42,421 bases of DNA from Comamonadaceae bacterium (GTDB lineage: Bacteria; Pseudomonadota; Gammaproteobacteria; Burkholderiales; Burkholderiaceae_C): NCBI GenBank assembly GCA_947372865.1, contig CANBVJ010000025.1, forward strand, positions 1 to 42,421. The letters are read 5' to 3'. The position numbers and the translations under genes are program-made. This document shows positions 4,971 through 32,917 of the stretch, one piece after another. The notes under the pieces were generated by a model. It was not told the origin of the DNA and did not search any database. It saw only the letters and a program-made list of their open reading frames with translations. Every line of letters starts with the position of its first letter. Position 1 is the first letter of the stretch.

Positions 4971-5280
4971 TGCGGGTGCTCTCCAGTTGCAGCGCGGGGA
5001 TGCCATGTGCAGGCGCAACCGGAGGTCGCGTGCCATGGCTTGACCGGCATTGTGCGCAGCAGCGCCCCGGCGCAGGTGTTCGCTTTACGACGCGCGAGTG
5101 CGCTCATGCGACACCGGTCCCTCTGAAGAAGGCCCTCGGGGCGGCACGTGTGCGGGCCACCGAAGGCCTGACGTTCGCGCACAAGTGCGGGTCGCATAGG
5201 GGCTATAGTGGCAGCGCAGGCGTGCCGATACTTTGCGGCACGCAGATTGCGCGCAGCCGTGCGCACACTTGGAGACGAAC
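4971..5280. promoter_or_regulatory. divergent intergenic region between sdaA-sox and mttB-like gene
   Basis: This 310-base spacer must contain the promoters of both units. On plus, a TATAGT hexamer at 5204-5209 is a candidate -10 box, with only a weak -35. A symmetric element CGCAC-AA-GTGCG at 5178-5189 lies just upstream and could be an operator. I looked for a glycine riboswitch on the sdaA side and found no convincing one. The promoter assignment is weak. Confidence 0.3.
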
Positions 5281-6873
5281 ATGGACGAAGTCATCAACCC
5301 CACCACCACGCCCGAGGCCGCCGCCCCCCGCAACCGCCGCACCGCCGGTGGCCGCGAAGCCAAACGCGCCGCCCGCAGCGCCCGCACCGGCTACACCGTG
5401 CCCTACATCACGCGCAAGGTGCCGTATTACGAAGTGCTGGACGAAGAAGGCCTGGCCATCATCGAATACAACGCCGACACCATTTTGGAAGAAGTCGGCA
5501 TTGATTTTCGCGACGACGCCGAGGCGCTGGACATCTGGCGCAAGGCCGGGGCTGACGTCAAAGGCGAACGCGTGCGTATGCCGCGTGGCATGTGCCGCGC
5601 CCTGGTGCAAGCCAGCGCCCCCCGCGAATTCACCCAGCACGCCCGCAACCCGGCCAACAACGTCGTCATTGGCGGCAAAAACACCGTGTTTGCGCCCGCC
5701 TACGGCTCGCCCTTTGTGCGAGACCTCGACAAGGGCCGCCGCTACGCCACGATTGAAGACTTCCAGAACTTCGTGAAGCTGGCCTACACCGCCAATTCCC
5801 TGCACCACTCGGGCGGCACGATTTGCGAACCGGTTGATCTGCCGGTGAACAAGCGCCACTTTGACATGGTGTACTCGCACATGAAGTACAGCGACAAGCC
5901 CTACATGGGCTCGGTTACCCACCCCGACCGCGCCCATGACACGGTCGAAATGTCCAAAGCGCTATTTGGCGACAACTACCTCGATCCGCTGACCGGCAAG
6001 CCCAAGACGGTGTGCATTAGCCTGATCAACGCCAACTCGCCCATGACTTTTGACGACACCATGCTCGGTGCGGCCAAGGTCTATGCGCGCGCCAACCAGG
6101 CCACCATCATCACGCCCTTCATCTTGGCTGGCGCCATGTCGCCGGTCACGGTGGCGGGCACCTGCGCCCAGACCCTGGCCGAAGCGCTGGCGGGCATGGC
6201 TTTTGTACAACTGGTCAACCCCGGCGCGCCGGTGGTGCTGGGTAGTTTTGCGTCGAGCATTTCCATGCAGTCGGGCGCGCCCACTTTTGGCACGCCTGAG
6301 CCGGCCCTGGTGCTGTACGTGATGGCTGCGCTGGCGCGCCGCGTCGGCGTGCCGTTTCGCTCGGGTGGCGGGCTGTGCGGCTCCAAGATTGCTGACGCAC
6401 AAGCCGCCTCTGAGGCGGCCAATACCATGCTGCCCACCTGCCTGGGTGGCGTCAACTTCGTGTTGCACACCGCAGGCTGGTTGGAGGGTGGCCTGTCGAT
6501 GGGCTACGAAAAATTCATCATGGACTGTGACCAGGCCGGCATGATGCACACCTTGCTCGCGGGCGTGGACGTGTCCGAAAACGGCCAGGCCATGGACGCC
6601 ATCCGCGAAGTGGGCCCAGGCAAGCACTTTTTGGGCTGCGCCCACACCCAGGCCAATTTTGAGAGCGCGTTTTACCGCTCGCCCATTACCGACAACAACA
6701 GTTTCGAGCAATGGGAAGCCGAAGGCGGCGTCGATCTGTCGGTGCGCGCCAACGCGCTGTGGAAAAAGCAGCTGGCCGAATACGAAGCCCCAGCGCTGGA
6801 CCCCGCTGCCGACGAAGCGGTGCTGGACTACATGAACCGCCGCAAGGCCTCGTTCGCTGACTCCAACGTCTGA
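5281..6873 (+). CDS. MttB-superfamily trimethylamine/glycine betaine-type methyltransferase (non-pyrrolysine)
   Basis: TIM-barrel methyltransferase of the MttB superfamily, 530 residues. The ATG at 5281 is chosen because GGAG lies 6 bases before it; an upstream in-frame ATG at 5233 lacks one. There is no in-frame amber codon, so it belongs to the non-pyrrolysine branch, whose best known member demethylates glycine betaine to dimethylglycine with a corrinoid protein. Family-like blocks include GSVTHPDRAHD, FVQLVNPGAPVVLGSFAS and FRSGGGLCGSKIADAQAA. The N-terminus is basic and low-complexity up to about residue 35. The substrate is inferred from the neighbouring sarcosine and carnitine genes. 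No corrinoid protein, methylcorrinoid:folate methyltransferase or reactivase gene lies in the window. Confidence 0.85.
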   Translation: MDEVINPTTTPEAAAPRNRRTAGGREAKRAARSARTGYTVPYITRKVPYYEVLDEEGLAIIEYNADTILEEVGIDFRDDAEALDIWRKAGADVKGERVRMPRGMCRALVQASAPREFTQHARNPANNVVIGGKNTVFAPAYGSPFVRDLDKGRRYATIEDFQNFVKLAYTANSLHHSGGTICEPVDLPVNKRHFDMVYSHMKYSDKPYMGSVTHPDRAHDTVEMSKALFGDNYLDPLTGKPKTVCISLINANSPMTFDDTMLGAAKVYARANQATIITPFILAGAMSPVTVAGTCAQTLAEALAGMAFVQLVNPGAPVVLGSFASSISMQSGAPTFGTPEPALVLYVMAALARRVGVPFRSGGGLCGSKIADAQAASEAANTMLPTCLGGVNFVLHTAGWLEGGLSMGYEKFIMDCDQAGMMHTLLAGVDVSENGQAMDAIREVGPGKHFLGCAHTQANFESAFYRSPITDNNSFEQWEAEGGVDLSVRANALWKKQLAEYEAPALDPAADEAVLDYMNRRKASFADSNV

Positions 6874-18656: not shown

Positions 18657-19604
18657 TCAGCGCAAGCGGGAGCGTTCGTCCTTGGGCCGCACGCCAAAAC
18701 GGCGGCGGTAGGCCCGAGAAAAGTGCGACGGTGTCGCAAAACCACAGGCCAACGCAATCGCCATCAAGCCCATATCGCTTTGTTCGAGCAACTGGCGTGC
18801 ACGGTCCAGGCGCAGTGACAGGTAGAAGGCCGCTGGCGAGACCTGTAAATGCGCGGCAAACAGGCGCTCCATCTGGCGCCGGGTCACACCCATCGCCGCA
18901 GCCAAGGCGTCCATCACTATTACTTCTTCCAGATGCGCTTGCATGGTCTGAATGGCCTGCACGAGTTTTTTGTCGTGCACGCCAAAGCGCGCCACCACTT
19001 CGGTGCGCTGGTGTTCGGACGGGCTGCGCACCGGGCCGTGCAAAAACTGCTCGGACACGGTGGCCGCCAGCGCCTGGCCGTGGCGTTGGCTGATCAGGGC
19101 CAGCACCATGTCCATGGCGGCCGTGCCCCCGGCGCAGGTGATGCGCCGTTCGCCCCGCTCAAACAGCTCTTGCGTCACGGTCAGGTTCGGGAAACGTTCC
19201 TTGAAGGCCGACTGCGCCTCCCAATGCAGTGTGACCGGGTGGCCGCCCAAGAGGCGCGCCTGCGCCAGCACAAAAGCGCCCGTGTCGATGGCACCCAGCG
19301 TGGCGCCCTGGCGGTCCAACTGGCGCAGCGCCTCGCCCAAGGCGCTTTGGTAATGCTGTAAGGGGTTAAAGCCGGCCACCACAAACAGGGTTTGCACCGC
19401 CTGCGCACTGGCCAGCGCCCCATCCACATTGAGCGACATGCCGTTGCTGGCGCGCACCGGGCCGCCGTCCTGGCTCAGGATTTTCCAGCGGTAGGCGTCG
19501 GGCACAAAGCGGTTGGCTACGCGCAGCGGTTCCACGGCCGAGGCAAAGCCCATGACCGAGAACTCGGGCAGCAGCAGGAAATGGAACTCCTGCGTTTCCA
19601 GCAC
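18657..19604 (-). CDS. GlxA/CdhR-family transcriptional regulator (DJ-1/PfpI plus AraC HTH)
   Basis: 315 residues from a GTG at 19604, placed 6 bases from the enoyl-CoA hydratase stop; the frame runs on upstream inside that gene but without family similarity. The N-terminal class-I glutamine-amidotransferase-like domain starts HFLLLPEFSVMGFASAVEPL, the pattern of the carnitine regulator CdhR and the betaine regulator GbdR. The C-terminal about 95 residues form an AraC double HTH (MDALAAAMGVTRRQMERLF and IALACGFATPSHFSRAYRRR). It is the last gene of the carnitine operon and directly upstream of the ABC uptake genes. It probably activates both in response to carnitine or a derivative. Confidence 0.9.
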   Translation of the reverse strand: MLETQEFHFLLLPEFSVMGFASAVEPLRVANRFVPDAYRWKILSQDGGPVRASNGMSLNVDGALASAQAVQTLFVVAGFNPLQHYQSALGEALRQLDRQGATLGAIDTGAFVLAQARLLGGHPVTLHWEAQSAFKERFPNLTVTQELFERGERRITCAGGTAAMDMVLALISQRHGQALAATVSEQFLHGPVRSPSEHQRTEVVARFGVHDKKLVQAIQTMQAHLEEVIVMDALAAAMGVTRRQMERLFAAHLQVSPAAFYLSLRLDRARQLLEQSDMGLMAIALACGFATPSHFSRAYRRRFGVRPKDERSRLR

Positions 19605-19609
19605 GGTGC

Positions 19610-20404
19610 TCAGCGCCCGGTCCAGCGCGGCGGCCTTTTTTCTGAAAAAGCCAGCGGGCCTTCGGCGGCGTCTTGGGATTGCAGCATGGCGCGGTAGATG
19701 GGCAGATCGCCCTGGCGCAGCGTGCGATAGCCGGTCTGCAAATCTTGGCCCTCGGTGGCGCTGACGATTTCCTTGACCGCAGCCACCGCCAGCGGCGCGG
19801 CCTGCACAATCTGCTGCGCCATTGCGCGCGCGCAATCCATTAATTCGGCAGCGGGCGTGACCTGATTCAATAAACCCCAGCGCAGCGCCTCAGGTGCGCC
19901 CATGCGCCGCCCGGTCAGCAGCAGCTCCATGGCCAGCGCGCGCGGCAGGCGCCGGGGCAGGCGCAGCAAGCCGCCCGAATCCGCCACCATGCCCAGCTTG
20001 ACTTCGGGCAGGGCAAATTCGGCCGTGTCGCTGGCCAGCATCAGGTCTGCTGCCAGCGCCAGCTCAAACCCGCCGCCCATGGCCAAGCCGTTGACGGCGG
20101 CGATTACCGGTTTGCCCAGACTGAAAAACTCAGTCAGGCCACCAAAACCGCCAGGGCCGTGGTCGGCGTCAATGGCCTCGCCTTCGGTGGCACCGGCCAG
20201 GTCCCAGCCGGCCGAGAAAAAGCGCCCGGTGCCGGTCAGGATGGCTACGCGCAGCGTCGGGTCGTTTTGCAGCTGTGCAAAAGCCGCGTACAGCGCCAGA
20301 CTCGTGGGCACGTTAATGGCGTTGGCCTTGGGCCGGTTCAGGGTGATGGTGAGCACGCCGCCTTCGGCGTGGGTGTGCACGGCGGCGGTATCAAGCATGG
20401 GCAT
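19610..20404 (-). CDS. enoyl-CoA hydratase/isomerase family (CaiD-like role proposed)
   Basis: Crotonase-fold protein, 264 residues, the usual full length with the typical end [12 protein letters not shown]. The oxyanion-hole block is [23 protein letters not shown] and the second conserved region is [20 protein letters not shown]. It would hydrate a trans-2-enoyl-CoA. In this operon hydration of crotonobetainyl-CoA to carnitinyl-CoA is the natural proposal, since the next steps act on carnitine. It overlaps the ligase gene by 14 bases. The fold is certain, the substrate is inferred. Confidence 0.9.
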
Positions 20405-22511
20405 CTCCTTGCAAGCGAATCAGGGCGTCCACGGCCAGCACGCCTTGGGGCATCACCAGCACGGGGTTGACATCGAGTTCCAGTAAACGGTCAGCATTCG
20501 CTTGGGCGTAGTCGGCCACCGCCATCACAGCGTCCACCAGCGCGACCACATCGCCCGCCGGGCGGCCGCGAAAGCCGCGCAGCAGCGGTGCCATTTTGAG
20601 CGCCTCTAGCGCCGCCTGCACCTCATGGCGCTGCACCGGCAGCAGCAAGGTGCGCGCGTCTTGCAACAACTCCACCAGCACGCCGCCCGCGCCCACGGTG
20701 AGCGACAGGCCAAACTGCGCGTCGCGCTGCACGCCCACAATCACTTCGGCCACCACATTGGAGGCCATTTGCTCGACCAAAAAATGGTCCGACAAGCCCG
20801 CCATCTGGATCAGCGCTGCTTGCACTTGGGCGGCGTTGGTCAGGTTCAGGTGCACCGCACCGGCCTCGGTTTTGTGCGCCAAGTGTTCGGACACGGCCTT
20901 GAGCACCACGGGGTAGCCCAGCGCGTCAGCGGCTTGCAGCACCTGCGCTGCGGGCACCACCTGGCCCTGGGGTACCGGCAGGCCAAACGCGGCCAGAGCG
21001 CGTTTGCTGGCGGCCTCGTCCAAGGTTCGAGGTGCGCCCATCTGCAACGCTTGCATCGGCAGCAAGGGCGTCAAGCCCGCTTGCGCACGGGCTGCAGCGC
21101 CGATCTGCGCGGCATGGGCAATGGCGTCCAGGCAATCGGGCAGGCCGTGCATGGGCGCAATGCCCCGGGCCATGAGCGCCTGGGCGTAGTCTTCGGGCAG
21201 GTCTTCGGGCAGGCTGGCGACCACGGTGGCGGCTTTGTTGCCCGACGCGTGTCCGGCGTGGGCGGCGGCCACAAAAGCGTCTACCGTGGTGCCCCAGCTC
21301 TCGGCGCTGCAGCGGTCCAGGCGCGGGTAGTCCAGCACCAGCAGGTGGGCGTCAAACTGGCAGTCCATCAGGCCGGAAAAGCATTCGGTCTGCGCCGCCA
21401 GGTCGCCCCAGATATAGGTGTGGTAGTCCAGCGGATTGGCGACTGTGACCTTGTCGCCCAGCACCGCGTGCAGGCGCGTTTGGGCGGCGGGGGGAATGGC
21501 CGGCATGTCCAGGCCGCGCGGCTGCGCCAGGTCCGCCACCAGCGAGGCTTCGCCGCCCGAGCAACTCGCCGAAATAATGCGCCTGCCCCCCAGCGGTCCG
21601 TGCACGTGCAAAAACTTGCAGGTCTCTATCAGCCCTGCGGGGTCACGCACGCGGGCCACGCCGCAGCGGGCAAACAGCGCGTCGTACAAGGCGTCGGGCC
21701 CGGCCAGCGAACTGGTGTGGCTCATGGCGGTTTGCGCGCCCAGCGCCGACGAACCCGCCTTGAGTGCCACCAGCGGCACGCCCTGGCGCAGCGCCTTAAG
21801 CGCCACGCGCGAGAACGCGGCCACGTCGTCCAGCCCCTCGATGTGCATGCCGATCACGCTCACGCGCGGGTCGGCCAAGAGCGCGTCCACCAGACTTTCC
21901 ATGCTGCTACCGGCCTTGTTGCCCACGGTAATCAGGTAGGCCAGGGGCAACGCGCGCCGTTGCATGGTCAGGTTCAGGCCGATGTTGCCGCTTTGCGTAA
22001 TCAGCGCCACGCCGCGCTCCACCCGCTGGCCGCCGTGCTGGTCAGGCCACAGCGCTACGCCGTCCAAATAGTTGAGCATGCCGTAGCAGTTGGGCCCTAG
22101 CAGCGCCATTTCATCCGCGTTGTGGACAAGCTGCTGCTGCAAGGTGACGCCTTCGCCGCCCACCTCGGCAAAGCCCGAGGCATAGCAAATCACACCACCG
22201 GCACCGCGCCCGGCCAACTGGCCCACGATGTCTACCGTGGCGTGGCGCGGCGCGGCTACAAAGCTGGCGTCAGGCGCCTGCGGCAGCGAGGCCACGTCGG
22301 GGTAGCAGGCAATACCTTCAACCGAGGCGCGTGTGGGATGCACCGGCCAGAGCTGGCCACCGTAACCGAGCTTGCGGCATTGGCGAATCGCCTCAGCCGC
22401 CGCAGCGCCACCGAACACCGCAATATGGCGTGGCGAAAACAGGCGTTGCAACTGCGCGCGGCCGGCGCCGTCTTGCTCCGCACGCTCTGCAGGCGCGGCA
22501 GGCCTGCTCAC
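20391..22511 (-). CDS. acyl-CoA ligase, ADP-forming (acetyl-CoA synthetase alpha-beta fusion type)
   Basis: 706-residue NDP-forming acyl-CoA synthetase. The N-terminal CoA-binding domain starts [20 protein letters not shown]; succinyl-CoA-synthetase-like domains carry [12 protein letters not shown] and [17 protein letters not shown]. The C-terminal ATP-grasp domain (about residues 480-706) has [20 protein letters not shown], including the conserved His. It would join a carboxylate to CoA with release of ADP and phosphate. In this operon the substrate is probably gamma-butyrobetaine, crotonobetaine or a related trimethylammonio acid, replacing the AMP-forming CaiC. It overlaps both neighbours, so it is translationally coupled. 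Confidence 0.9.
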
Positions 22512-23680
22512 GCGCCGTGCACGCGCAGCATGGCGCGCGAGATGATGTGGCGCTGGATTTCGCTGGTGCCGTCCCAGATGCGTTCCACCCGCGCATCGCG
22601 CCAGTAGCGCTCAATGGGCAACTGGTTCATCAGGCCCATGCCACCGAAGATTTGCAGCGCGTTGTCGGTCACCCGCGCCAGCGCCTCCGAGGCGAACAAC
22701 TTGGCCATGGCCGCGTCCGAATCGGTCATGGTGCCCTGGTCGCATTTCCAGGCGGCTTGCAGTGTCAAGAGTTCAGCCGCAGCCAGCTCGGTGGCCATGT
22801 CGGCGAGCTTGAAGCCCGTGCCCTGGAACTTTCCAATGGGCTGGCCAAACTGCTTGCGCGTGGCGGCCCATTCCGTAGCCATTTCCATCACCCGCTGGCC
22901 GCGCCCCACGCTGGTGGCGGCCACCGTCAGGCGGGTGGCGCCCAGCCACTGGCCCATCAAATCAAACCCAGCGCCCTCGTCGCCCAGGCGTTTGTAAGCC
23001 GGCACGCGGCAGTCGGTAAAAAACAGCTCGCACTGGTGGTAGCCCCGGTGCGAGACGCAGGCGGGGCCCCGGCGCACGGTCAGGCCGGGCGAATTCAGGT
23101 CCACCAAAAAGCCGGTGATCTTTTTCTTGGGGCCGTGCTTGGTGTCTTCGACGCCGGTGGCGGCAAACAGCACCACAAAGTCGCTCATGTCGGCGTGGCT
23201 GATGAAGTGCTTGGTGCCGTTGATCAGGTAGTCGGCGTCCTCCCCGCTGCCGTCGCGCGTGGCCCGGGTTTGCATCCCGCGCACGTCCGAGCCAGCGTTG
23301 GGTTCGGTCATGGCCAGGCAGTCGTGGCGCTCGCCACGGATGGTGGGCAGCAAATATTCTTCAATCTGCGCGCCTTCGCAGGCCCGCAAGATGTTGCTGG
23401 GGCGGGCGATCAGCATTTGCAAGCCATAAGACGCGCGCCCGAGTTCGCGCTCCATCAGCGTGATGCTGAAGTTGTCCAGCCCGCCGCCGCCGAGTTCGGC
23501 CGGCATATTGGCGGCGTACAAGCCCACCTCAATCGCCTTGGCCTGGATGGACTGCGCCAGCTCGGGCGCAATGGCGTCGGTGCGCTCGACTTCGTCCTCA
23601 TAGGGGTAAAGCTCTTTTTCGACAAAGGCACGCACCGTGTCCACGATCATGGTGTGTTCGCTGCTGAGTTGGAAATGCAT
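22508..23680 (-). CDS. acyl-CoA dehydrogenase
   Basis: FAD-dependent acyl-CoA dehydrogenase, 390 residues, full length. Flavin and substrate blocks are CLAMTEPNAGSDVRGM, and the C-terminal ALQIFGGMGLMNQLPIERYWRDARV. At the position of the usual catalytic Glu (YEGT in MCAD) it has Asp370 in IWDGTSEIQRH, a notable substitution. It would make a 2,3-enoyl-CoA, most simply gamma-butyrobetainyl-CoA to crotonobetainyl-CoA. An electron-transfer flavoprotein would be the electron acceptor, but none is encoded nearby. The start overlaps nothing upstream (20 bases after the thioesterase) and its stop overlaps the ligase start. Confidence 0.9.
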   Translation of the reverse strand: MHFQLSSEHTMIVDTVRAFVEKELYPYEDEVERTDAIAPELAQSIQAKAIEVGLYAANMPAELGGGGLDNFSITLMERELGRASYGLQMLIARPSNILRACEGAQIEEYLLPTIRGERHDCLAMTEPNAGSDVRGMQTRATRDGSGEDADYLINGTKHFISHADMSDFVVLFAATGVEDTKHGPKKKITGFLVDLNSPGLTVRRGPACVSHRGYHQCELFFTDCRVPAYKRLGDEGAGFDLMGQWLGATRLTVAATSVGRGQRVMEMATEWAATRKQFGQPIGKFQGTGFKLADMATELAAAELLTLQAAWKCDQGTMTDSDAAMAKLFASEALARVTDNALQIFGGMGLMNQLPIERYWRDARVERIWDGTSEIQRHIISRAMLRVHGA

Positions 23681-23700: not shown

Positions 23701-24276
23701 TCAGGCCGTTTTGCGGCGAATGCCCATGGGCTTGCCCACCTGGGGCGGCGTGGACAGGCTGGCGTGGGCTTGGGCAATGGCTTGCAGGCGCGCCTGCAAA
23801 TCGGCAGGCATGGGCGTGGAGCGGCCCTGGGCCATGTCCACATGCACCAGCATTTGCTCGGCCGTGGCCAGCAGGTCGCCGGTGGTGGCGTGGTGCATCG
23901 CATGAAAGATGTGCACGCGCTTGTCATCTTGGTCGAGCAACTGCAAGGTCAGGCGCAGGGGCTCGCCCTCGGCCACTTCCTGGATGTTGTGGATATGGGT
24001 TTCTACGGTGTAGAGCGACTGGCCGCCCTGGTCGCGGTAGGCCTCGTCAATGCCCACAAAGCGAAAAAACGCGTCCGAGTTGTCGCCAAACACCAGCAAG
24101 TAACAAGACTCGCTCATGTGGCCGTTGTAGTCCACCCATGCGGGCAGCACGGTGGGGCGGTACTGGCACAGGGGCGCGGCAATCGCCGCGGCCGGGTTCC
24201 ACGGTGGCGCGGGCGTGCCTTCGAGCGGGGTGCTCAGGCCGTGGGATTTTTTGGTGGGGGCGTCAGGGGCGGTCAT
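23701..24276 (-). CDS. hotdog-fold acyl-CoA thioesterase (first copy)
   Basis: 191 residues of the 4HBT/FabZ-like hotdog family. The active-site segment WVDYNGHMSESCYLLVF has the conserved Asp, and the core strand region HIHNIQEVAEGEPLRLTLQL follows. A proline-rich extension of about 40 residues precedes the domain. In carnitine catabolism a thioesterase of this family frees glycine betaine from betainyl-CoA. A second, shorter homolog lies at 25404-25901, so the two probably act on different CoA esters, for example betainyl-CoA and carnitinyl-CoA. Confidence 0.88.
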   Translation of the reverse strand: MTAPDAPTKKSHGLSTPLEGTPAPPWNPAAAIAAPLCQYRPTVLPAWVDYNGHMSESCYLLVFGDNSDAFFRFVGIDEAYRDQGGQSLYTVETHIHNIQEVAEGEPLRLTLQLLDQDDKRVHIFHAMHHATTGDLLATAEQMLVHVDMAQGRSTPMPADLQARLQAIAQAHASLSTPPQVGKPMGIRRKTA

Positions 24277-25403: not shown

Positions 25404-25901
25404 TTATTTGGGCTGCGGCAGCGCCATCACCCGCCCGACCTGGGCCGGGCGCGGCAGCAGCGCGTGCTGCGCGGCGAGTGGCTGCAAATACGCGGCCACC
25501 TGGGGCGCAAAAGCCGTGGCGCGCGGGCCAGCCATGTCCACGTTGAGCAGCATCTGCTCGGTCAGCGCCAGCACTTGCGTTCCGCCTGCGGGGTGCAGAC
25601 TCAGGGCCACGTGCAGGCGCTTGGCGTCTAGGCCCAGCATCTGCAGGCGCACTTCCACGGCGGCACCTTGCTTGACCTCGTGCAGGTAATTGATATGCGC
25701 CTCCAGCGTAAACCACGAGTGGCCCGTGGCTTTGCGCCCGGCCTCATCCAGGCCGGCCAGGTCCATCAGCGCGTCCACCGCACTGCTAAACAGCACCATG
25801 TAATAACCATCGCGCAGGTGGCCGTTGAAGTCCACCCACGCGGGGCCAATGCTGCAGCGGTACACCACCGGCAGCGCCGGGGCGCTATTCAGCTCAGGCA
25901 T
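25404..25901 (-). CDS. hotdog-fold thioesterase, probable betainyl-CoA thioesterase
   Basis: 165-residue 4HBT-type thioesterase. It has [21 protein letters not shown] with the conserved Asp, and [21 protein letters not shown]. Its start overlaps the end of the carnitine dehydrogenase gene by 8 bases. In other proteobacteria this thioesterase is sometimes fused to carnitine dehydrogenase, which makes this copy the better candidate for hydrolysing betainyl-CoA to glycine betaine. The assignment combines family knowledge with context. Confidence 0.88.
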
Positions 25902-26859
25902 CGGGGGCGATTCCGTGTTTGATTTTGGTGGCCCGCACCGCTTCTTGCACCGCCATCAGGCAGTCGTCGCGGTAGCGTTCCCAGTCGGCAATGCTGCGGG
26001 TGCCGAGTTGCTCTACGCTGCCTTCGGCCACGGCGTCAAGCAGGCTGTCGGTGAGTTCGGGCGCTTCCAGCTTGGTCCAGGGCAATTTCAGCGCCGGGCC
26101 AAACTGGGCCATGAAGTGGCGCATGCCCGCGTCGCCGCCGGCCAGCGTATAGATCAAAAAGCTGCCCATGAACGACCAACGCATGCCTGCGCCAAAGCGA
26201 ATCGCATCGTCAATCTCGCCGGTAGTGGCCACGCCGTCGTTGACCAAATGCAAGGACTCGCGCCACATGGCCTCTAACAATCGGTCGGCGATAAAGCCGG
26301 GCACCTCTTTGCGCACGTGCAGTGGGCGCATGCCCAAGCTGCGGTAGACCTGCATGGCGGCTTGCACCGCCTCGGGCGCGGTGTTGACGCCGCCCACCAC
26401 CTCGACCAGCGGCAGCAAATACACCGGGTTGAACGGGTGGCCCACCACGCAGCGCTCGGGGTGCTGGGCATTGGCATAAAAGTCGGTGGGCAAAAGGCCC
26501 GAAGTGCTTGAGCCGATGAGCACGTTGGGGCGCGCGGCCGCCGTGATTTGCGCATGCAGCGACAGTTTGAGGTCTTGGCGCTCGGGCGCGCTTTCTTGAA
26601 TGAAGTCGGCATGCGCCACGCATTCTTCGACGGTGGCGACAAACTTCAGGCGGTCTTGCGAGGCGCCAGGCGCGAGGCCTTGGGCGGTGAGCGCGCCCCA
26701 GGCTTTGGCAGTGCGCTCGCGCAAGGCGGCCTCCGCACCGGGGGCTGGGTCCCAGGCAATCACGTCCAGGCCATGGGCCAGGGCGCGCGCCACCCAGCCG
26801 CTGCCGATGACGCCGGTGCCCAGGGCTGCGAAGGTTTTGATGTCGGTAATGAAGTTCAT
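25894..26859 (-). CDS. lcdH: L-carnitine 3-dehydrogenase
   Basis: NAD-dependent oxidation of L-carnitine to 3-dehydrocarnitine, 321 residues. The Rossmann motif GTGVIGSG (residues 14-21) is followed by Asp37 at the end of strand 2, favouring NAD over NADP. The catalytic block of 3-hydroxyacyl-CoA dehydrogenases is present as [19 protein letters not shown], with His142 and Glu154. The sequence lacks a fused thioesterase domain; that function is on the overlapping downstream gene. Directly downstream of a BKACE gene, this is the canonical carnitine degradation pair. A general 3-hydroxyacyl-CoA dehydrogenase is the alternative but fits the context less well. Confidence 0.9.
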
Positions 26860-26890: not shown

Positions 26891-27778
26891 TCAACCGCGT
26901 TTCTTGAGGCCCATTTTTTCGCGGCCCTGGGCTGGCGTCATGGGCCTGCCGCCCAGGCGGGTGATGATTTCCACCACGCGCTCGGTCAGCGAGCCATTGG
27001 TGGCCAGCACGCCTTTGTCCAGCCACAGGTTGTCTTCCAGCCCCACGCGCACATTGCCGCCCAGCAGCATGGCCTGCGCGGCCATAGGCATTTGGGCGCG
27101 GCCAATGCCAAAGCCCGACCACACCACGCCCGGCGGCAGGTTGTCCACCATGGCTTTCATGGTGGTGGTGTCGGCGGGTGCGCCCCAGGGGATGCCCAGG
27201 CAAAGCTGGAACAGCGGGTTGTCGAGCAAACCCTCTTTCATCATTTGCTTGGCAAACCACAGGTGGCCGGTGTCAAAAATTTCCAGCTCGGCTTTTACGC
27301 CCAGCTCGGTAATGCGCTTGGCGCCCGCGCGCAGCGCCACTGGGGTGGACACGTAAATCGTGTCGCCATCGCCAAAGTTCAGCGTGCCGCAGTCCAGGGT
27401 GCAGATTTCGGGCAGCAGTTGCTCCACGTGAATCAAGCGCGCCATGGGGCCAATCAGGTCGGTGTTGGGGCCGAATCGGGTGGGCGTCTCGCCGGGTCCG
27501 ATTTCCAAGTCGCCGCCCATGCCGGCGGTCAGGTTGACGATGATGTCCACGCCCGAGTCGCGGATGCGGTCCATCACTTCGGCGTACAAGGCCGGGTCGC
27601 GGCTGAACTGGCCGGTCTCGGGGTTGCGCACGTGGCAGTGCACCACGGTGGCGCCGGCCTTGGCCGCTTCCACCGCAGCGGCGGCGATTTGCGTGGGCGT
27701 GACGGGCACGTGCGGGCTTTTGCCAGCGGTGTCGCCCGCGCCGGTCAGGGCGCAGGTAATGATGACGTTGTTGTTCAT
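26891..27778 (-). CDS. BKACE (DUF849) beta-keto acid cleavage enzyme, dehydrocarnitine type
   Basis: Zinc-dependent condensing and cleaving enzyme, 295 residues. Metal ligands are His47 and His49 in VVHCHVR and Glu248 in RVGLEDNLW. The family reacts a beta-keto acid with acetyl-CoA to give acetoacetate and a new CoA ester; with 3-dehydrocarnitine the product is betainyl-CoA. The neighbouring carnitine dehydrogenase and thioesterases support this substrate over 3-keto-5-aminohexanoate. The start ATG overlaps the stop of the aldolase gene (ATGA). The 31-base gap to the dehydrogenase implies co-transcription. Confidence 0.93.
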
Positions 27779-28518
27779 GCTTTGTACTCCGGTTCTTCGT
27801 GGTCAAGGATGTCTTTGAGCGCCGCAAAGTGCAGCGCGCTAAAGGCGGTGGGGTAATCGTTCCACTGCGCGCAGGCCAGCGCGGCCATTGGCTCGGGAAT
27901 CAGCGCCAGTGGTCGGCCCGTGGACAGGGCCAGCACTTGCAGCTTGGCGGCTTTTTCCAGGTAATAAAGTTCGTCCAGCGCCTGCGCCACCGTGGGGCCG
28001 ACCACGATCACGCCGTGGTTGCCCATGAACAGCACGCTTTTGCCCTCGCCCAGCAAGCCCGCCACGCGCTGGCCTTCGCTGGCATCCAGCGCCATGCCGG
28101 CGTAGTCGCGGTCATAGGCAATGCGGTCATGGAAGCGGCAGGCGTTTTGGTCCAGCGCCAGCCATTCAAAGTCTTGCAGGCAACACAGCGTGGTGGCGTA
28201 AGGCATGTGCGTGTGCAAGATGCAGCGCGCCTGCGGCAGGCGCTGGTGCAGCTCGGCGTGCAGGTTCCAAGCCGTGGGGTCGGGCGCGTTGGCGGCTTGT
28301 GCGTCAGCACCCTGGCGGGCGTCAACCCGCAGCAAGTCGCTAGCCCGGACGCGTGAGAAGTGGCTGCCCGCCGGGTTGAGCAAAAACTGCGCGCCGTCGT
28401 CGCTAAGCGCCAGACTGAAATGGTTGGCAATCGACTCATGCATGTCCCAGCGCGCCGCCCAGCGGAAGGCCGCAGCCAGGTCGATGCGCGCGGAAGTCTC
28501 GTCGGGGAGTTCGGTCAT
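27775..28518 (-). CDS. class II aldolase/adducin family protein
   Basis: 247 residues, AraD/FucA fold. Candidate zinc ligands are HTH in [10 protein letters not shown] and His in [11 protein letters not shown]; a Glu in [11 protein letters not shown] matches the catalytic acid region. It is the first gene of the ten-gene carnitine operon and is translationally coupled to BKACE. No aldol or decarboxylation step is known in carnitine degradation, so it may handle a side compound or an additional substrate. Members of this family are often misassigned as sugar aldolases; no sugar context exists here. Confidence 0.88.
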
Positions 28519-28793
28519 GCGTCCAGTCGTGAAAAGATGCCAGTGTGGCCAGCGTGTTGGCGCACTGTAGCCCGCAAGCGGGCAGATTTATGGCACTTAG
28601 ACGACGTTTTTTCGGCTTTTTGCGACGATTTTCTGGATTGCTTGGCCATTTGCTGAGGTACGCGGCGGTCCATTTCGCGCCGCGAGGCTGCGTGGCGCCT
28701 CCTGCCAAGGTCGCTTTTGGGCCACCGCCCGAGCGCGCGCTGTGTCACCATCGGTGCTTTCGCATTTGCGCACTTTTGAGTCCACGCCGCACC
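28519..28793. promoter_or_regulatory. divergent control region, carnitine operon vs MFS gene
   Basis: 275 bases without a convincing gene. It must hold the promoter of the ten-gene minus-strand operon and of the MFS permease. A perfect short hairpin GCCCGC-AA-GCGGGC lies at 28570-28583, followed by an AT-richer T-tract stretch (28590-28660). No GCAAA-N-TTTGC pair like that at 18475-18519 was found. Confidence 0.3.
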
Positions 28794-30056
28794 ATGAACA
28801 ACCCGAGCAAAAAATCCCTCACCTGGCCCCTGGCCTCGCTGCTCAGCGGCGTGAGCATGCTGGTGGTGGGGATTGCGCTGCTGACGGTGGCTATTGGCGC
28901 GCAAGCCGGTTTGGCCAAGTATTCAGGCCTGGTGACGGGCATGATCATGTCGGCTTACTTTGCCGGCTTTGTGTATGGCACTTACGCCTGTCCGGCGCTC
29001 ATCCGCCGCGTGGGCTATATCCGCGCGTTTGCGGTGATGGCCTCGGTGGCGTCTGCCGTGCCGGTGTTGCACGCCATTTGGACCAACCCCTGGTTTTGGG
29101 GCCTGCTGCGCTTTGTGACCGGCGTGTGTATTGTGGGCTTGTATGTGGTGATCGAGAGCTGGCTCAACGTGGTGGCCGACCGCGAAAGCCGGGGCAAGGT
29201 GTTTGCGGCTTATATGGCGGTGAGTGGCGTGTCTACCGCCGTGGGCCAGTGGCTGATTTTGGTGGGCGACCGCTTTGGTTTTGTGCCGTTTGCGCTGGTG
29301 TCGATTTTGTTTTCGTTTGCGCTCATTCCCACCACGCTGACCACCATCCGCGAGCCGCGCCAGACCGAGGCGCCGTCCATGAACCTGATCTCGCTGTTTG
29401 TGATTTCGCCCATAGGCGCGATTGCGTCCATGGGCTCGGGCCTGATCAACGGCACCTTTTACAGCCTGGGCAATGTGTTTGGCAAAGGCGTGGGCTTTAG
29501 CGACAACCGCACTGCGGCCTTCATGGCCATCACGATTTTGAGCGGTGCGGCCTTTCAGTGGCCGGTGGGGCATTTGTCGGACCGCTACGACCGGCGCTGG
29601 ATTTTGTTCTGGATTTGCGTGGTGTCGGCGGTGCTGGCGGCCGTGGGCTTTTATTTGGCGCGCGAGTATGAAAACTTTTTGATTTTTCTGGGCGTCTTGT
29701 ACGGCGCCATGTCGTTTGCCATTTACGGCTTGAGCGTGGCGCACACCAACGATTTGATCGAGCCATCCAAGGTGCTGGAAACCACTGGCGGCTTGCTGCT
29801 GCTCTACGGCATTGGCGCAACCATGGGCCCCACGCTGGCCGGTGGCCTGATGGACGTTCTGGGCCCCGAAAGCCTGATGCTCTACTTTGCCATCGTGCTC
29901 ACGCTCTTGGCGGGTGTGGTTTGGTACTACACGGCCCAGCAGCAACGCTCTGCGCGCATGCCGGCGCACCGCTCCGACTACGTGATGATGGACGCCAGCT
30001 CGCAAGCGGTGCTGCAGATGGACCCGCGCGGCCAAACCCAGGCCGAACAAGACTAA
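28794..30056 (+). CDS. MFS transporter
   Basis: 420-residue major facilitator with about 12 hydrophobic segments, starting with SLLSGVSMLVVGIALLTVAI. ATG at 28794 gives a normal N-terminus (MNNPSKKSLTWPLASLL); the open frame upstream is not protein-like. The loop motif GHLSDRYDRRW between segments 8 and 9 is the A-like signature, and the sequence resembles the YcaD/MFS_1 group. It lies upstream of the tmpAB-like pair with 142 bases between. Uptake or export of a trimethylammonio compound is plausible but unproven. Confidence 0.92.
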   Translation: MNNPSKKSLTWPLASLLSGVSMLVVGIALLTVAIGAQAGLAKYSGLVTGMIMSAYFAGFVYGTYACPALIRRVGYIRAFAVMASVASAVPVLHAIWTNPWFWGLLRFVTGVCIVGLYVVIESWLNVVADRESRGKVFAAYMAVSGVSTAVGQWLILVGDRFGFVPFALVSILFSFALIPTTLTTIREPRQTEAPSMNLISLFVISPIGAIASMGSGLINGTFYSLGNVFGKGVGFSDNRTAAFMAITILSGAAFQWPVGHLSDRYDRRWILFWICVVSAVLAAVGFYLAREYENFLIFLGVLYGAMSFAIYGLSVAHTNDLIEPSKVLETTGGLLLLYGIGATMGPTLAGGLMDVLGPESLMLYFAIVLTLLAGVVWYYTAQQQRSARMPAHRSDYVMMDASSQAVLQMDPRGQTQAEQD

Positions 30057-30174
30057 GCGGCACAAGAAGCGCACTCGGCGCCGCGCGCCTGTCAATTACA
30101 CAAATTGCGTGCGGGCATGTACCGGCGCACTGGCAGGTCGCGCTGGATTAGTATCGTGGCGGGAACATCTTTCA

Positions 30175-30183
30175 CCCCCCCCC
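30175..30183 (+). repeat. nine-cytosine homopolymer before the dioxygenase gene
   Basis: A run of nine C residues lies 15 bases upstream of the chosen GTG start. Such a tract can vary in length by slippage, and could change spacing in the leader or, if an upstream start is used, the reading frame. It is also a common sequencing-error spot. Confidence 0.9.
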
Positions 30184-30198
30184 ACAGGACTGCACGCC

Positions 30199-31314
30199 GT
30201 GATTGCTATTGACATCAACCTCTCTGCCACCCCGCCCCAAGTCGTGCTGCGCCAAGGCGCTGACACCCAAGTGCTGCCCGCACTGTGGCTGCGCGCCCGC
30301 AGCTATGACCCCAGCCAGCGCGACCTCGTTACCGGCCAGCGCCTGATGAACCCGCACCAGTTGCCCACCGACCTGCAACTCACCGCCACCGCCTGGAACG
30401 CGGACCGCACGCAACTGCGCCTGGCGTTTAGCGACGGCTTTGCCGGCGACTTTGACCCGCAAGAACTGATCGTAGGCACCGTGTTGTCCGAAGAATGCCC
30501 GCCGCCCCAGCCCTGGACGTCTGACCTGTCGCCCCAGCCGGTCTACGGCTGGGACGATCTGGCCCAAGAAGCGGTGCTGCACCGCGCGTTGCGCGACTTC
30601 ATCACCCGCGGCTTTTTGCTGGTGCACGGCAGCCCCACCAAGGCCGACTCGATTTTGGAAGTGGCGCGGCGCTTTGGCTATGTGCGCGACACCAACTTTG
30701 GTGCGTTTTTTGAGGTCTATTCGCGCCCCGGCTCCAACGATCTGGCTTACCGCCCGGTGTCTCTGGGCCCGCACACCGACAACCCTTACCGTGACCCGGT
30801 GCCCGGCATCCAGGTGCTGCAATGCCTGCAAAACGAAACCTCGGGCGGCCTGTCCACCCTGGTGGACAGCCTGGCCGTGGCCGCCCAGGTGCGCGCCGAA
30901 GACCCTGAAGGCTTTGCGCTGCTCAGCAAGGTGCCGGTGCGCTTTGAATACCGCGACGGCGACAAGGCGCACTTGGTGGCGGTCACGCCCCTGATTGAGC
31001 TTGACGGCCAAGGCCATATGACCGGCGTGCACTACAGCCCGCGCCTGGACGATATTCCGCTCATGTCCGAGGCCGACACCCAGCGCTACCACGCCACGCG
31101 CAAGCGCCTGGGCGAACTGTTTGAAGACCCGCGCTACGAGCTGCGCTTTCGGCTGGACCCGGGCTGGTTCATGATGTTTGACAACAACCGCGTCTTGCAC
31201 GGTCGCACCGCGTTTGACCCGTCTGAAGGCCACCGCCAACTGCAGGGCTGCTACATTGACCGCGACGGCCCACGCAGCACCTACCGCGTGCTGAGCCGCC
31301 GCTTTGGGGCCTGA
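30199..31314 (+). CDS. tmpA: 2OG/Fe(II) dioxygenase, probable 2-(trimethylammonio)ethylphosphonate dioxygenase
   Basis: TauD/GBBH-family oxygenase, 371 residues from GTG at 30199, with a weak AGGA site about 10 bases before it. An upstream in-frame ATG at 30109 gives a non-conserved extension. Iron ligands are His192 and Asp194 (GPHTDNP) and His334 (RVLHGR), and Arg346 (GHRQLQ) should bind 2-oxoglutarate. The N-terminal DUF971-like domain (LPALWLRARSYD) lacks the zinc cysteines of gamma-butyrobetaine hydroxylase. The HD-domain oxygenase gene 43 bases downstream matches the TmpA-TmpB pair, in which TmpA hydroxylates the phosphonate next to phosphorus. Gamma-butyrobetaine or trimethyllysine hydroxylase remains an alternative because carnitine genes are nearby. 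Confidence 0.75.
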   Translation: MIAIDINLSATPPQVVLRQGADTQVLPALWLRARSYDPSQRDLVTGQRLMNPHQLPTDLQLTATAWNADRTQLRLAFSDGFAGDFDPQELIVGTVLSEECPPPQPWTSDLSPQPVYGWDDLAQEAVLHRALRDFITRGFLLVHGSPTKADSILEVARRFGYVRDTNFGAFFEVYSRPGSNDLAYRPVSLGPHTDNPYRDPVPGIQVLQCLQNETSGGLSTLVDSLAVAAQVRAEDPEGFALLSKVPVRFEYRDGDKAHLVAVTPLIELDGQGHMTGVHYSPRLDDIPLMSEADTQRYHATRKRLGELFEDPRYELRFRLDPGWFMMFDNNRVLHGRTAFDPSEGHRQLQGCYIDRDGPRSTYRVLSRRFGA

Positions 31315-31357
31315 GCGCCCTGCATTTTTGAACCCCACTTTTGATTGAGGCTACGCC

Positions 31358-31933
31358 ATGAACCAGGTTGCATTTACCCAGATGAAAGACGGCACGGCCG
31401 AGGAATACCAGTTCTTGCAAGGGCTGGAGCACGACTACGTCCGCGCCCTGCCCGACCGCCTGTTGACGGCGCTCGAAGGCTTGGGTGACTCTTTGCAGGG
31501 CTACCAGATCAGCCGCCTGGAGCATTCGCTGCAAAGCGCCACCCGCGCCGAGGCCGATGGCGCCGACATCGACATGGTGGTGGCCGCCCTGGTGCACGAC
31601 ATTGGCGACGCGCTGGCCCCCGAGAACCACTCGCAAATGGCCGCCGCCATCCTGCGCCCCTATGTGCGCGCCGAAGTGACCTGGGTGATTGAAATGCACG
31701 GCCTGTTTCAAATGAAATACTACGCGCACCACTACGGCAACAACCCCGACGGCTACTTGGCTTACGCCGACCACAAGTGGTTTGACAGCTGCGCCCGCTT
31801 TTGCGAACTCTACGACCAAGCCGCCTTTGACCCGGCTTACCCGACCAAGCCGCTGTCGTACTTTGCGCCCATGCTGCGGGAGGTGTTTGGGCGCAAGGCG
31901 TTTGATCCGGAAGTGGTTCAAGAGGGAGTTTGA
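31358..31933 (+). CDS. tmpB: HD-domain mixed-valent diiron oxygenase, probable TmpB (betaine-forming C-P cleavage)
   Basis: 191-residue HD-superfamily protein of the PhnZ/MIOX-like oxygenase branch, often annotated as a phosphohydrolase. Candidate metal ligands are His56, His80-Asp81 (LVHDIGD), His91 (ENHSQ), His114 (EMHGLFQ) and an acidic residue near 138-153 (ADHKWFD). The His56-to-His80 spacing equals that of PhnZ. The N-terminal MKDGTAEEYQFL supplies a Tyr and Glu that could form the substrate lid. Paired with the upstream dioxygenase it would cleave 1-hydroxy-2-(trimethylammonio)ethylphosphonate to glycine betaine and phosphate. The gene is followed at once by degenerate DNA. Confidence 0.75.
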   Translation: MNQVAFTQMKDGTAEEYQFLQGLEHDYVRALPDRLLTALEGLGDSLQGYQISRLEHSLQSATRAEADGADIDMVVAALVHDIGDALAPENHSQMAAAILRPYVRAEVTWVIEMHGLFQMKYYAHHYGNNPDGYLAYADHKWFDSCARFCELYDQAAFDPAYPTKPLSYFAPMLREVFGRKAFDPEVVQEGV

Positions 31934-31950
31934 GGGCGTTTGCGTTCAGG

Positions 31951-32120
31951 GAAGCGCGGAGAATTTTGGCACGCGCAGCGACGCCGTCTTGGTGTCAGCC
32001 GAGGACTGGAGCGCCATCCAGGAAACGCTGTATCTGCTGGCTGTGCCGGGTATGCGCGAATCCATCAATGCCGGTATAGCTGAGCCACTGGCGCAGAGCG
32101 CGACCGGGCTCAACTGGTGA
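31951..32120 (+). pseudogene. truncated YefM/Phd-type antitoxin remnant
   Basis: The plus frame ending at the TGA 32118-32120 encodes NFGTRSDAVLVSAEDWSAIQ, then ETLYLLAVPGMRESI and AEPLAQ. This is the C-terminal half of a YefM/Phd antitoxin. The N-terminal half and a start codon are missing, and the upstream boundary runs into the end of the tmpB-like gene. No intact YoeB/Txe toxin follows. It is a decayed fragment left by a deletion or insertion. Confidence 0.65.
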
Positions 32121-32311: not shown

Positions 32312-32626
32312 ATGAAATCCCTTCAATTCATCGGAAGCAGCCAACAAGATTTGGCTAAGTTCCCTGAATTGGCAAAGCGACATGCAGGGTTTGAGCTGTG
32401 GCAAGTTCAACTGGGCTTGATGCCCAGCGACTTCAAGCCCATGCCCACGGTGGGTGCTGGGGCGTATGAGGTGCGTATCAAGGTGGGGACACAGTGGCGT
32501 GTGATTTATGTGGCTAACCGAGGGGACGCGGTGTACGTGCTGCACGCTTTTCAAAAGACCACGCAGAAAACCGCCAAGTCCGACATTGACCTGGCCGCCG
32601 CCCGATACAAGCAAATAGGAGCCTGA
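32312..32626 (+). CDS. HigB/RelE-type toxin (phage Gp49-like family)
   Basis: 104-residue type II toxin. Typical blocks are LAKFPELAKRHAGFELWQVQ, GAGAYEVRIKVGTQWRVIY and AVYVLHAFQKTTQKT, the RelE-like core of the Gp49/HigB family that cleaves mRNA on the ribosome. The gene lies 3 bases before an XRE antitoxin, toxin-first as in higBA modules. With a -10 box 6 bases upstream its mRNA may be leaderless. Confidence 0.92.
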   Translation: MKSLQFIGSSQQDLAKFPELAKRHAGFELWQVQLGLMPSDFKPMPTVGAGAYEVRIKVGTQWRVIYVANRGDAVYVLHAFQKTTQKTAKSDIDLAAARYKQIGA

Positions 32627-32629
32627 ACC

Positions 32630-32917
32630 ATGACCGAATCCAATATTCATCCGTCCAGTGGCAATGTGTTTGTGGACCTGGGGTTTTCTGAGGGCGAGGC
32701 AGCTGTGCTGGCCCTGCGTGCCGATTTGATGGGGCGCTTGCGCTTGCTGGTGCAGCAAGAGGGCTGGACGCAAGAGCAAGCCGCCAAGCGCTTTGGGGTG
32801 ACGCAGTCTCGGGTGTCTGACTTGGTGCGGGGAAAGTGGGAAAAGTTCAGCCTGGACATGCTCATTACCCTGGCCGCGCGTGCGGGGCAAAAAGTGGCGA
32901 TTGAAATGCACGCTTGA
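32630..32917 (+). CDS. HigA-type XRE-family antitoxin
   Basis: 95-residue helix-turn-helix protein. The HTH covers about residues 45-75 (EQAAKRFGVTQSRVSDLVRG) and is followed by KFSLDMLITLAARAGQKV, as in antitoxins paired with Gp49-like toxins. It should neutralise the toxin encoded 3 bases upstream and repress the shared promoter through the palindrome at 32280-32291. Confidence 0.92.
   Translation: MTESNIHPSSGNVFVDLGFSEGEAAVLALRADLMGRLRLLVQQEGWTQEQAAKRFGVTQSRVSDLVRGKWEKFSLDMLITLAARAGQKVAIEMHA

Follow-up and report, generated by a model that had tools for sequence, protein, structure and literature searches.

The window analysed here, a stretch of 42,421 nucleotides from a Comamonadaceae bacterium (contig CANBVJ010000025.1, assembly GCA_947372865.1), carries two adjacent genes on the same strand, which encode a predicted dioxygenase dependent on Fe(II) and 2-oxoglutarate (2OG), designated DOX, and a small HD-domain protein, designated HD. 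The original prediction, made from the sequence alone, read this pair as TmpA-TmpB-like, converting a trimethylammonio-phosphonate to glycine betaine. The DOX open reading frame (ORF) extends over 30109-31314 (+), with an in-frame GTG at 30199 that served as the start in that prediction.

30199..31314, + strand: DOX, Fe(II)/2OG dioxygenase of a clade sister to TmpA (longest ORF from 30109)
31315..31357, + strand: gap of 43 bases between DOX and HD
31358..31933, + strand: HD, type II HD-domain diiron-type oxygenase, 191 amino acids, ATG start

A Pfam scan of the pair returned TauD for DOX (148 bits) and HD for HD (28 bits). The pair itself was as described: counted from GTG 30199, His192, Asp194, His334 and Arg346 of the dioxygenase are at the predicted positions, as are His56 and His80-Asp81 of HD, and the 43-base spacing (31315-31357) is correct. 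Carnitine genes also adjoin as claimed: beyond an MFS gene, and divergent from the pair, lie a BKACE-family gene and an L-carnitine dehydrogenase that scores 620 bits against a cut-off of 414. The two-step architecture of a 2OG hydroxylase followed by an HD diiron-type oxygenase is supported, whereas the identity as TmpA/TmpB and the phosphonate substrate are not.

DOX belongs to a clade beside TmpA

The closest solved relative of DOX is TmpA (E 1e-69, compared with E 3e-28 for human gamma-butyrobetaine hydroxylase, GBBH). In the tree, DOX is sister to TmpA and does not fall among GBBH or trimethyllysine hydroxylases (TMLH); the TmpA clade comprises 13 rows (98/96), 12 of them beside a TmpB, and the DOX clade is a separate one of 24 rows (100/96). 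Since only translations longer than 300 amino acids entered this tree, the dioxygenases of L175 and L176, which lie beside TmpB, have no row in it. Two others, L193 and L174 (the latter with its own TmpB homologue), were excluded from the 12 TmpA alignment rows because the tree placed them apart, and the DOX rows of L071 (only 15 amino acids long), L040 (in a wrong frame) and L049 were left out. TmpA was also the best NCBIfam model for DOX (NF049936), with 382.4 bits, below the curated cut-off of 400; four members of the DOX clade scored 331-357 and the TmpB-linked row L037 reached 590.8. Neither the gamma-butyrobetaine dioxygenase model (TIGR02409, 249.8 bits, cut-off 414.75) nor the trimethyllysine dioxygenase model (TIGR02410, 164.8 bits, cut-off 268.3) reached its threshold.

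The His-Asp-His triad and the 2OG-binding Arg of TmpA are present in DOX as H222, D224, H364 and R376 (401-residue numbering, used hereafter), each in 24/24 DOX rows. The codons of these residues and of the changed positions are the following.

30772..30780, + strand: H222-T-D224, Fe ligands
31198-31200, + strand: H364, third Fe ligand
31234-31236, + strand: Arg376, binding 2OG
30739..30741, + strand: Asp211 (Asn191 in BBOX, Asp231 in TMLH, Asn in TmpA)
31036..31041, + strand: Ser310-Pro311 (in TmpA Asn, then mostly Asn; in BBOX Asn-Asn)

Compared with TmpA of Leisingera caerulea, DOX shows N211D and N310S-P311; position 211 is Asp in 24/24 DOX rows and Asn in 12/12 TmpA rows. Both BBOX asparagines that contact the substrate carboxylate according to passages of PMC4497603 (Asn191 and Asn292) are replaced. 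DOX shares with TMLH the Asp at the Asp231 position, whose role is treated in a passage of PMC7764450, and differs from it in the Ser-Pro at the presumed position of Asn334, in its bacterial origin and in its HD partner.

HD keeps the diiron ligands and lacks the phosphonate-end residues

The closest folds to HD are PhnZ and TmpB, and it is nearer to these oxygenases than to other HD proteins. All the metal ligands are present (H56, H80-D81, H91, H114 and D153), those beyond the original prediction included, and type II HD proteins and TmpB fall in separate clades.

31523..31525, + strand: H56, first metal ligand
31595-31600, + strand: H80-D81, metal ligands
31628-31630, + strand: H91, metal ligand
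31697-31699, + strand: H114, metal ligand
31814-31816, + strand: D153, metal ligand
31502..31504, + strand: Tyr49 (E27 in PhnZ, E33 in TmpB); Tyr in 87/87 type IIa rows, Glu in 16/16 TmpB rows
31607..31609, + strand: Asp84 (His in HDxGH of TmpB and PhnZ); Asp in 87/87 type IIa rows, His in 16/16 TmpB rows
31709..31711, + strand: Gln118 (Lys108 in PhnZ); Gln in 95/95 type II rows, Lys in 16/16 TmpB rows

Relative to TmpB of L. caerulea, YxxE has become LxxY, HDxGH has become HDxGD and AKRYL has become FQ..Y, and the QGGPM loop is absent from the type II rows inspected, a subset of the whole. In PhnZ, the phosphonate contacts are presumably H62, K108, R158 and S126; at the first three of these HD has D84, Q118 and E150, the last being Glu in 65 of 87 type IIa rows. 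MIOX is remote (Pfam match of 14.6 bits, below the cut-off of 25) and is not known to have a 2OG partner. Passages of PMC8177086 give the YxxE loop as a TmpB feature and place the corresponding Glu of PhnZ and TmpB near the substrate amino group; this Glu is the one replaced by Tyr49 in all type IIa rows, and in 7 of 8 type IIb rows Phe stands instead of Tyr49.

Against the TmpB model (NF049941, cut-off 300) HD scored 30 bits; of three further type II rows, two reached 42 and 48 bits and one had no match at 1e-6. Against the phosphonate HD clade TIGR03276 it scored 41 bits; this clade is defined in a passage of PMC11203657 by a fifth conserved His and a score above 214.6, and if that His is the one in HDxGH, as we infer, HD has Asp84 in its place. 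The NCBIfam and Pfam scans returned no model specific to the type II HD family, no relative was found in the viral contigs searched, and among the matches listed in open-access literature searches on HD oxygenases, on carnitine with HD domain and on HD with betaine C-C cleavage, nothing concerned it. A second type II HD gene (41% identity) lies in the same genome (G000:C15:36583-37104, L003:7572-8159), and no hydroxylase was recognised beside it.

Recurrence and surroundings of the pair

We examined 80 loci, the best of at least 592 HD relatives, selected solely on similarity of the HD protein, so that the sample is biased to rows resembling the window. Set A3 comprised 21 DOX loci and the window, and set A4 57 of the 80 loci and the window. 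A DOX homologue lies directly upstream of HD on the same strand in 23 of the 80 (21 at 44-91% identity, two at 28%); as the loci were picked by HD similarity, the pairing is more than chance. Among these 21 are loci from Comamonadaceae, Thiothrix, Halomonadaceae, Marinomonas, Alteromonas, Dongia and Pararhizobium. The nearest named relatives within the best 80 of at least 592 are Comamonadaceae and Burkholderiales metagenome-assembled genomes (HD 97% in L071). In the window's genus, DOX was found in 6 of 36 other species searched.

HD has other partners as well. A PhyH-type 2OG enzyme lies directly upstream in 8/80 loci, a Rieske oxygenase in L098, and a fatty-acid-hydroxylase-family gene directly downstream in L139, L149 and a Phaeobacter inhibens plasmid (L195). 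On that plasmid, type II HD is followed by the sterol-desaturase/fatty-acid-hydroxylase gene and then by a PanB-type gene. In the remaining loci no hydroxylase gene was identified directly beside HD among the neighbours scanned. Out of the 56 loci without a DOX-family match, 48 went into a genome search, and 26 of these 48 genomes had no DOX-family match at E 1e-20; therefore HD often works without DOX. This holds for L074 and L075 (Comamonadaceae/Burkholderiales), where HD stands in a carnitine locus without DOX and the genome search gave no DOX-family match.

The other 22 genomes did have such a match, in 12 of them beside a TmpB homologue. Nine of these 12 TmpB-adjoining dioxygenases fall in the TmpA clade, two lie outside the tree sample (L175 and L176, matching TmpA at 66 and 63%) and that of L174 lies outside the clade; type II HD and TmpB thus coexist. 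The genome of the window has, on contig C28 (G000:C28, L214:5585-14415), a separate C-P lyase-type phosphonate operon with PhnJ (495 bits), a PhnD-type protein (249.5 bits) and, on visual inspection, more genes of Phn type next to them. Its PhnZ-type HD protein scores 198 bits for TIGR03276, just below the cut-off, and has the HDLGH, DAKRYL, LRRYDD and LQGG features which the window HD lacks.

These data bear on whether the pair is after all a true TmpA/TmpB, with 2-(trimethylammonio)ethylphosphonate as the compound that is hydroxylated by DOX and then cleaved at its C-P bond by HD to glycine betaine and phosphate, a pathway described in passages of PMC8177086 and PMC10574752. Apart from the TmpA matches of DOX and the diiron ligands and PhnZ/TmpB fold of HD, two further findings favour it: with 400.3 bits, L045, which belongs to the sister part of the wider 27-row group, clears the TmpA cut-off by 0.3, and a PstS-type phosphate-binding gene follows DOX-HD in Dongia. 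We rejected this identity as very improbable, on the HD score of 30 bits against a TmpB cut-off of 300, the separate clades, the replacement in 87/87 rows of residues invariant in 16 TmpB rows and the coexistence with TmpB in 12/48 genomes; the phosphonate operon elsewhere in the genome also speaks against it, as does the lack of a Pho box near the pair (the single match in the window, at 2731, compares with a chance mean of 1.64). The window genes scanned gave no match to any phosphonate model.

Alternatively, DOX could be a conventional hydroxylase of gamma-butyrobetaine or trimethyllysine that supplies carnitine, with HD as a separate neighbour, perhaps a hydrolase. The adjoining carnitine genes, the Asp shared with TMLH, the many HD loci without an adjoining DOX and the fact that DOX is the sole member of its family found in its own genome at E 0.001 would fit. 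We consider this unlikely given the low model scores, the Ser-Pro at the presumed Asn334 position, the adjacency of DOX and HD across lineages and the oxygenase-like fold of HD. Moreover, in Marinomonas colpomeniae a GBBH-like enzyme (376 of 415 bits) occurs in addition to DOX-HD.

Individual loci point to quaternary amines. In M. colpomeniae, an aldolase (33%), a GhrA-like gene, DOX, HD and the GBBH-like dioxygenase are clustered, with ProX/ProV-type genes, a carnitine dehydrogenase (41%) and a BKACE gene (61%) nearby, and DOX, aldolase and HD occur together in two further genomes. Marinomonas communis has DOX-HD-BCCT. On a Pseudomonas aeruginosa plasmid, DOX-HD is followed by a choline-binding protein, a choline dehydrogenase and an aldehyde dehydrogenase; relatives of these three genes accompany HD, in this case without DOX, on a Rhizobium megaplasmid. 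HD is also found with MttB, BCCT and homocysteine methyltransferase genes in L106 and L133, and L063 combines it with a DOX homologue (28%) and with Sox and MttB genes. This last locus, from the window's class, is a large cluster with GbdR-like, SoxA-/SoxB-like and DMGDH-like genes, HD + 2OG, and corrinoid-activator-like and MttB-like genes.

As a count, this context is weak. With a threshold of at least 35% identity over at least half of the query at E 1e-15, a quaternary-amine marker was found in the fetched stretch of 15/80 HD loci (10/75 once five close relatives of the window are removed), against 0/11 TmpAB and 0/12 type IIb control loci; the pooled difference is not significant (Fisher p 0.11). 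The type IIb control excluded L051, which the tree assigned to type IIa. Some markers were drawn from these loci, so that the test is partly circular. Context as proof was thus rejected because the count is not significant. HD may instead be a diiron oxygenase acting on something unrelated to quaternary amines, cleaving diols or amino alcohols like MIOX, and its carnitine and choline neighbours incidental. The 65/80 loci without a marker, the PhyH and fatty-acid-hydroxylase partners, the frequent lack of an adjoining hydroxylase and the Tyr in place of the Glu reported near the substrate amino group agree with this. Against it stands the presence of HD, in several lineages, in clusters with choline, carnitine, betaine and MttB genes, and the conserved aromatics described below would not fit either. 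We regard it as doubtful, while granting it a substantial weight.

The genes surrounding the pair in the window are listed here.

28545..30056, + strand: MFS transporter, upstream of DOX
27775..28518, - strand: class II aldolase-family protein (PRK07490)
26891..27778, - strand: BKACE-family enzyme (beta-keto acid cleavage); all its model matches fell short of their cut-offs
25894..26859, - strand: L-carnitine dehydrogenase
25404..25901, - strand: thioesterase-like, matching the C-terminal part of the carnitine 3-dehydrogenase model
23701..24276, - strand: thioesterase-like, matching the same model
22508..23680, - strand: acyl-CoA dehydrogenase
20391..22511, - strand: NDP-forming-type acyl-CoA ligase
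19610..20404, - strand: enoyl-CoA hydratase family
18657..19835, - strand: GbdR-like regulator (329.5 bits, under the cut-off of 480)

Judging by their families, the divergent genes could convert gamma-butyrobetaine and carnitine to glycine betaine. Further away, an MttB-superfamily methyltransferase-like gene lies at 5233-6873 (258 of 525 bits), with relatives near type II HD in L063, L106, L133 and L139. Downstream of HD, a Gp49-like gene (PF05973) followed by a helix-turn-helix gene (PF13744) at 32312-32917 looks like a type II toxin-antitoxin pair. A Phd/YefM antitoxin C-terminal part at 31974-32084 (PF02604, 31.6 bits, cut-off 29.8) is probably a remnant, and the ORF bearing it (31782-32120) shares bases, in a different frame, with the last part of the HD gene.

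A possible route into betaine catabolism

Passages of PMC8177086 and PMC10574752 describe, for TmpA/TmpB and PhnY*/PhnZ, a hydroxylation followed by oxidative cleavage beside the hydroxyl, and those of the former name three HD-domain oxygenases: MIOX, PhnZ and TmpB. From the computed gene pair, clade, metal ligands, fold, residue changes and contexts, we infer oxygenase activity, step order, C-C cleavage and substrate class: DOX-HD may constitute a two-step oxygenase module of TmpA-TmpB build, likely cleaving a C-C bond of a betaine-type compound, to which we assign a probability of about 0.45. DOX would hydroxylate a carbon of a small compound, and HD, as a PhnZ/MIOX-type diiron oxygenase, would use O2 to break the bond beside the new hydroxyl, with a carboxylic acid and a small fragment as the products. 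Cleavage would most likely be at C-C, as in MIOX, rather than at C-P, because HD has lost the phosphonate-end residues of TmpB and PhnZ and the acid-site Asn residues of DOX are changed. The rebuilt active sites thus suggest that the pair probably breaks C-C bonds in betaine-type nutrients. The substrate is probably a quaternary-ammonium compound, which the conserved aromatics of HD (Y49, W109, F117, F148 and F157) would suit, and its product may join the neighbouring route from gamma-butyrobetaine and carnitine to glycine betaine. Candidate reactions are the conversion of trimethyllysine into gamma-butyrobetaine, that of homocholine or beta-alanine betaine into glycine betaine, and that of carnitine into glycine betaine and a C2 acid; as a hint only, a C2 co-product would fit the GhrA-like gene of M. 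colpomeniae and a beta-hydroxyacid-dehydrogenase-type gene in Thiothrix.

Several observations weigh against this proposal, besides L045, the Dongia gene, the non-significant and partly circular marker count and the 26 genomes without a DOX-family match. Asp at position 211 is not specific to DOX, being found in 10/29 other rows, and the Asn191 position is not strict, since the GBBH-like L111b also lacks this Asn. Arg312 is kept in 23/24 DOX rows, as in 12/12 TmpA rows, and may still bind an anion; HD has gained Arg53 (invariant) and Arg63 (near-invariant), and its position 150 is Arg, not Glu, in 10/87 rows. A reading of Asp211, Asp84 and Glu150 as signs that the substrate carries a cation was considered, and lowered because of Arg312, Arg53 and Arg63.

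More broadly, it is possible, and we put it forward tentatively, that type II HD constitutes an unrecognised and widespread family of C-C-cleaving diiron oxygenases, fed by varied hydroxylases (TmpA-like DOX, PhyH-type, fatty-acid-hydroxylase type and possibly Rieske) and shortening a quaternary-ammonium compound in the window. If so, a fourth HD-domain oxygenase, one that has at least 592 relatives and recurs with hydroxylase partners, would extend the sequence of hydroxylation and diiron cleavage beyond phosphonates, and such pairs would no longer be miscounted as TmpAB or phosphonate genes in surveys. Passages of PMC8085414 state that L-carnitine biosynthesis is unobserved in prokaryotes, and a trimethyllysine route would therefore be new. 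Conversion of trimethyllysine to gamma-butyrobetaine, or of a three-carbon choline analogue to glycine betaine, would, if true, constitute a new entry into betaine catabolism and a pointer to unknown routes for betaine-type osmolytes.
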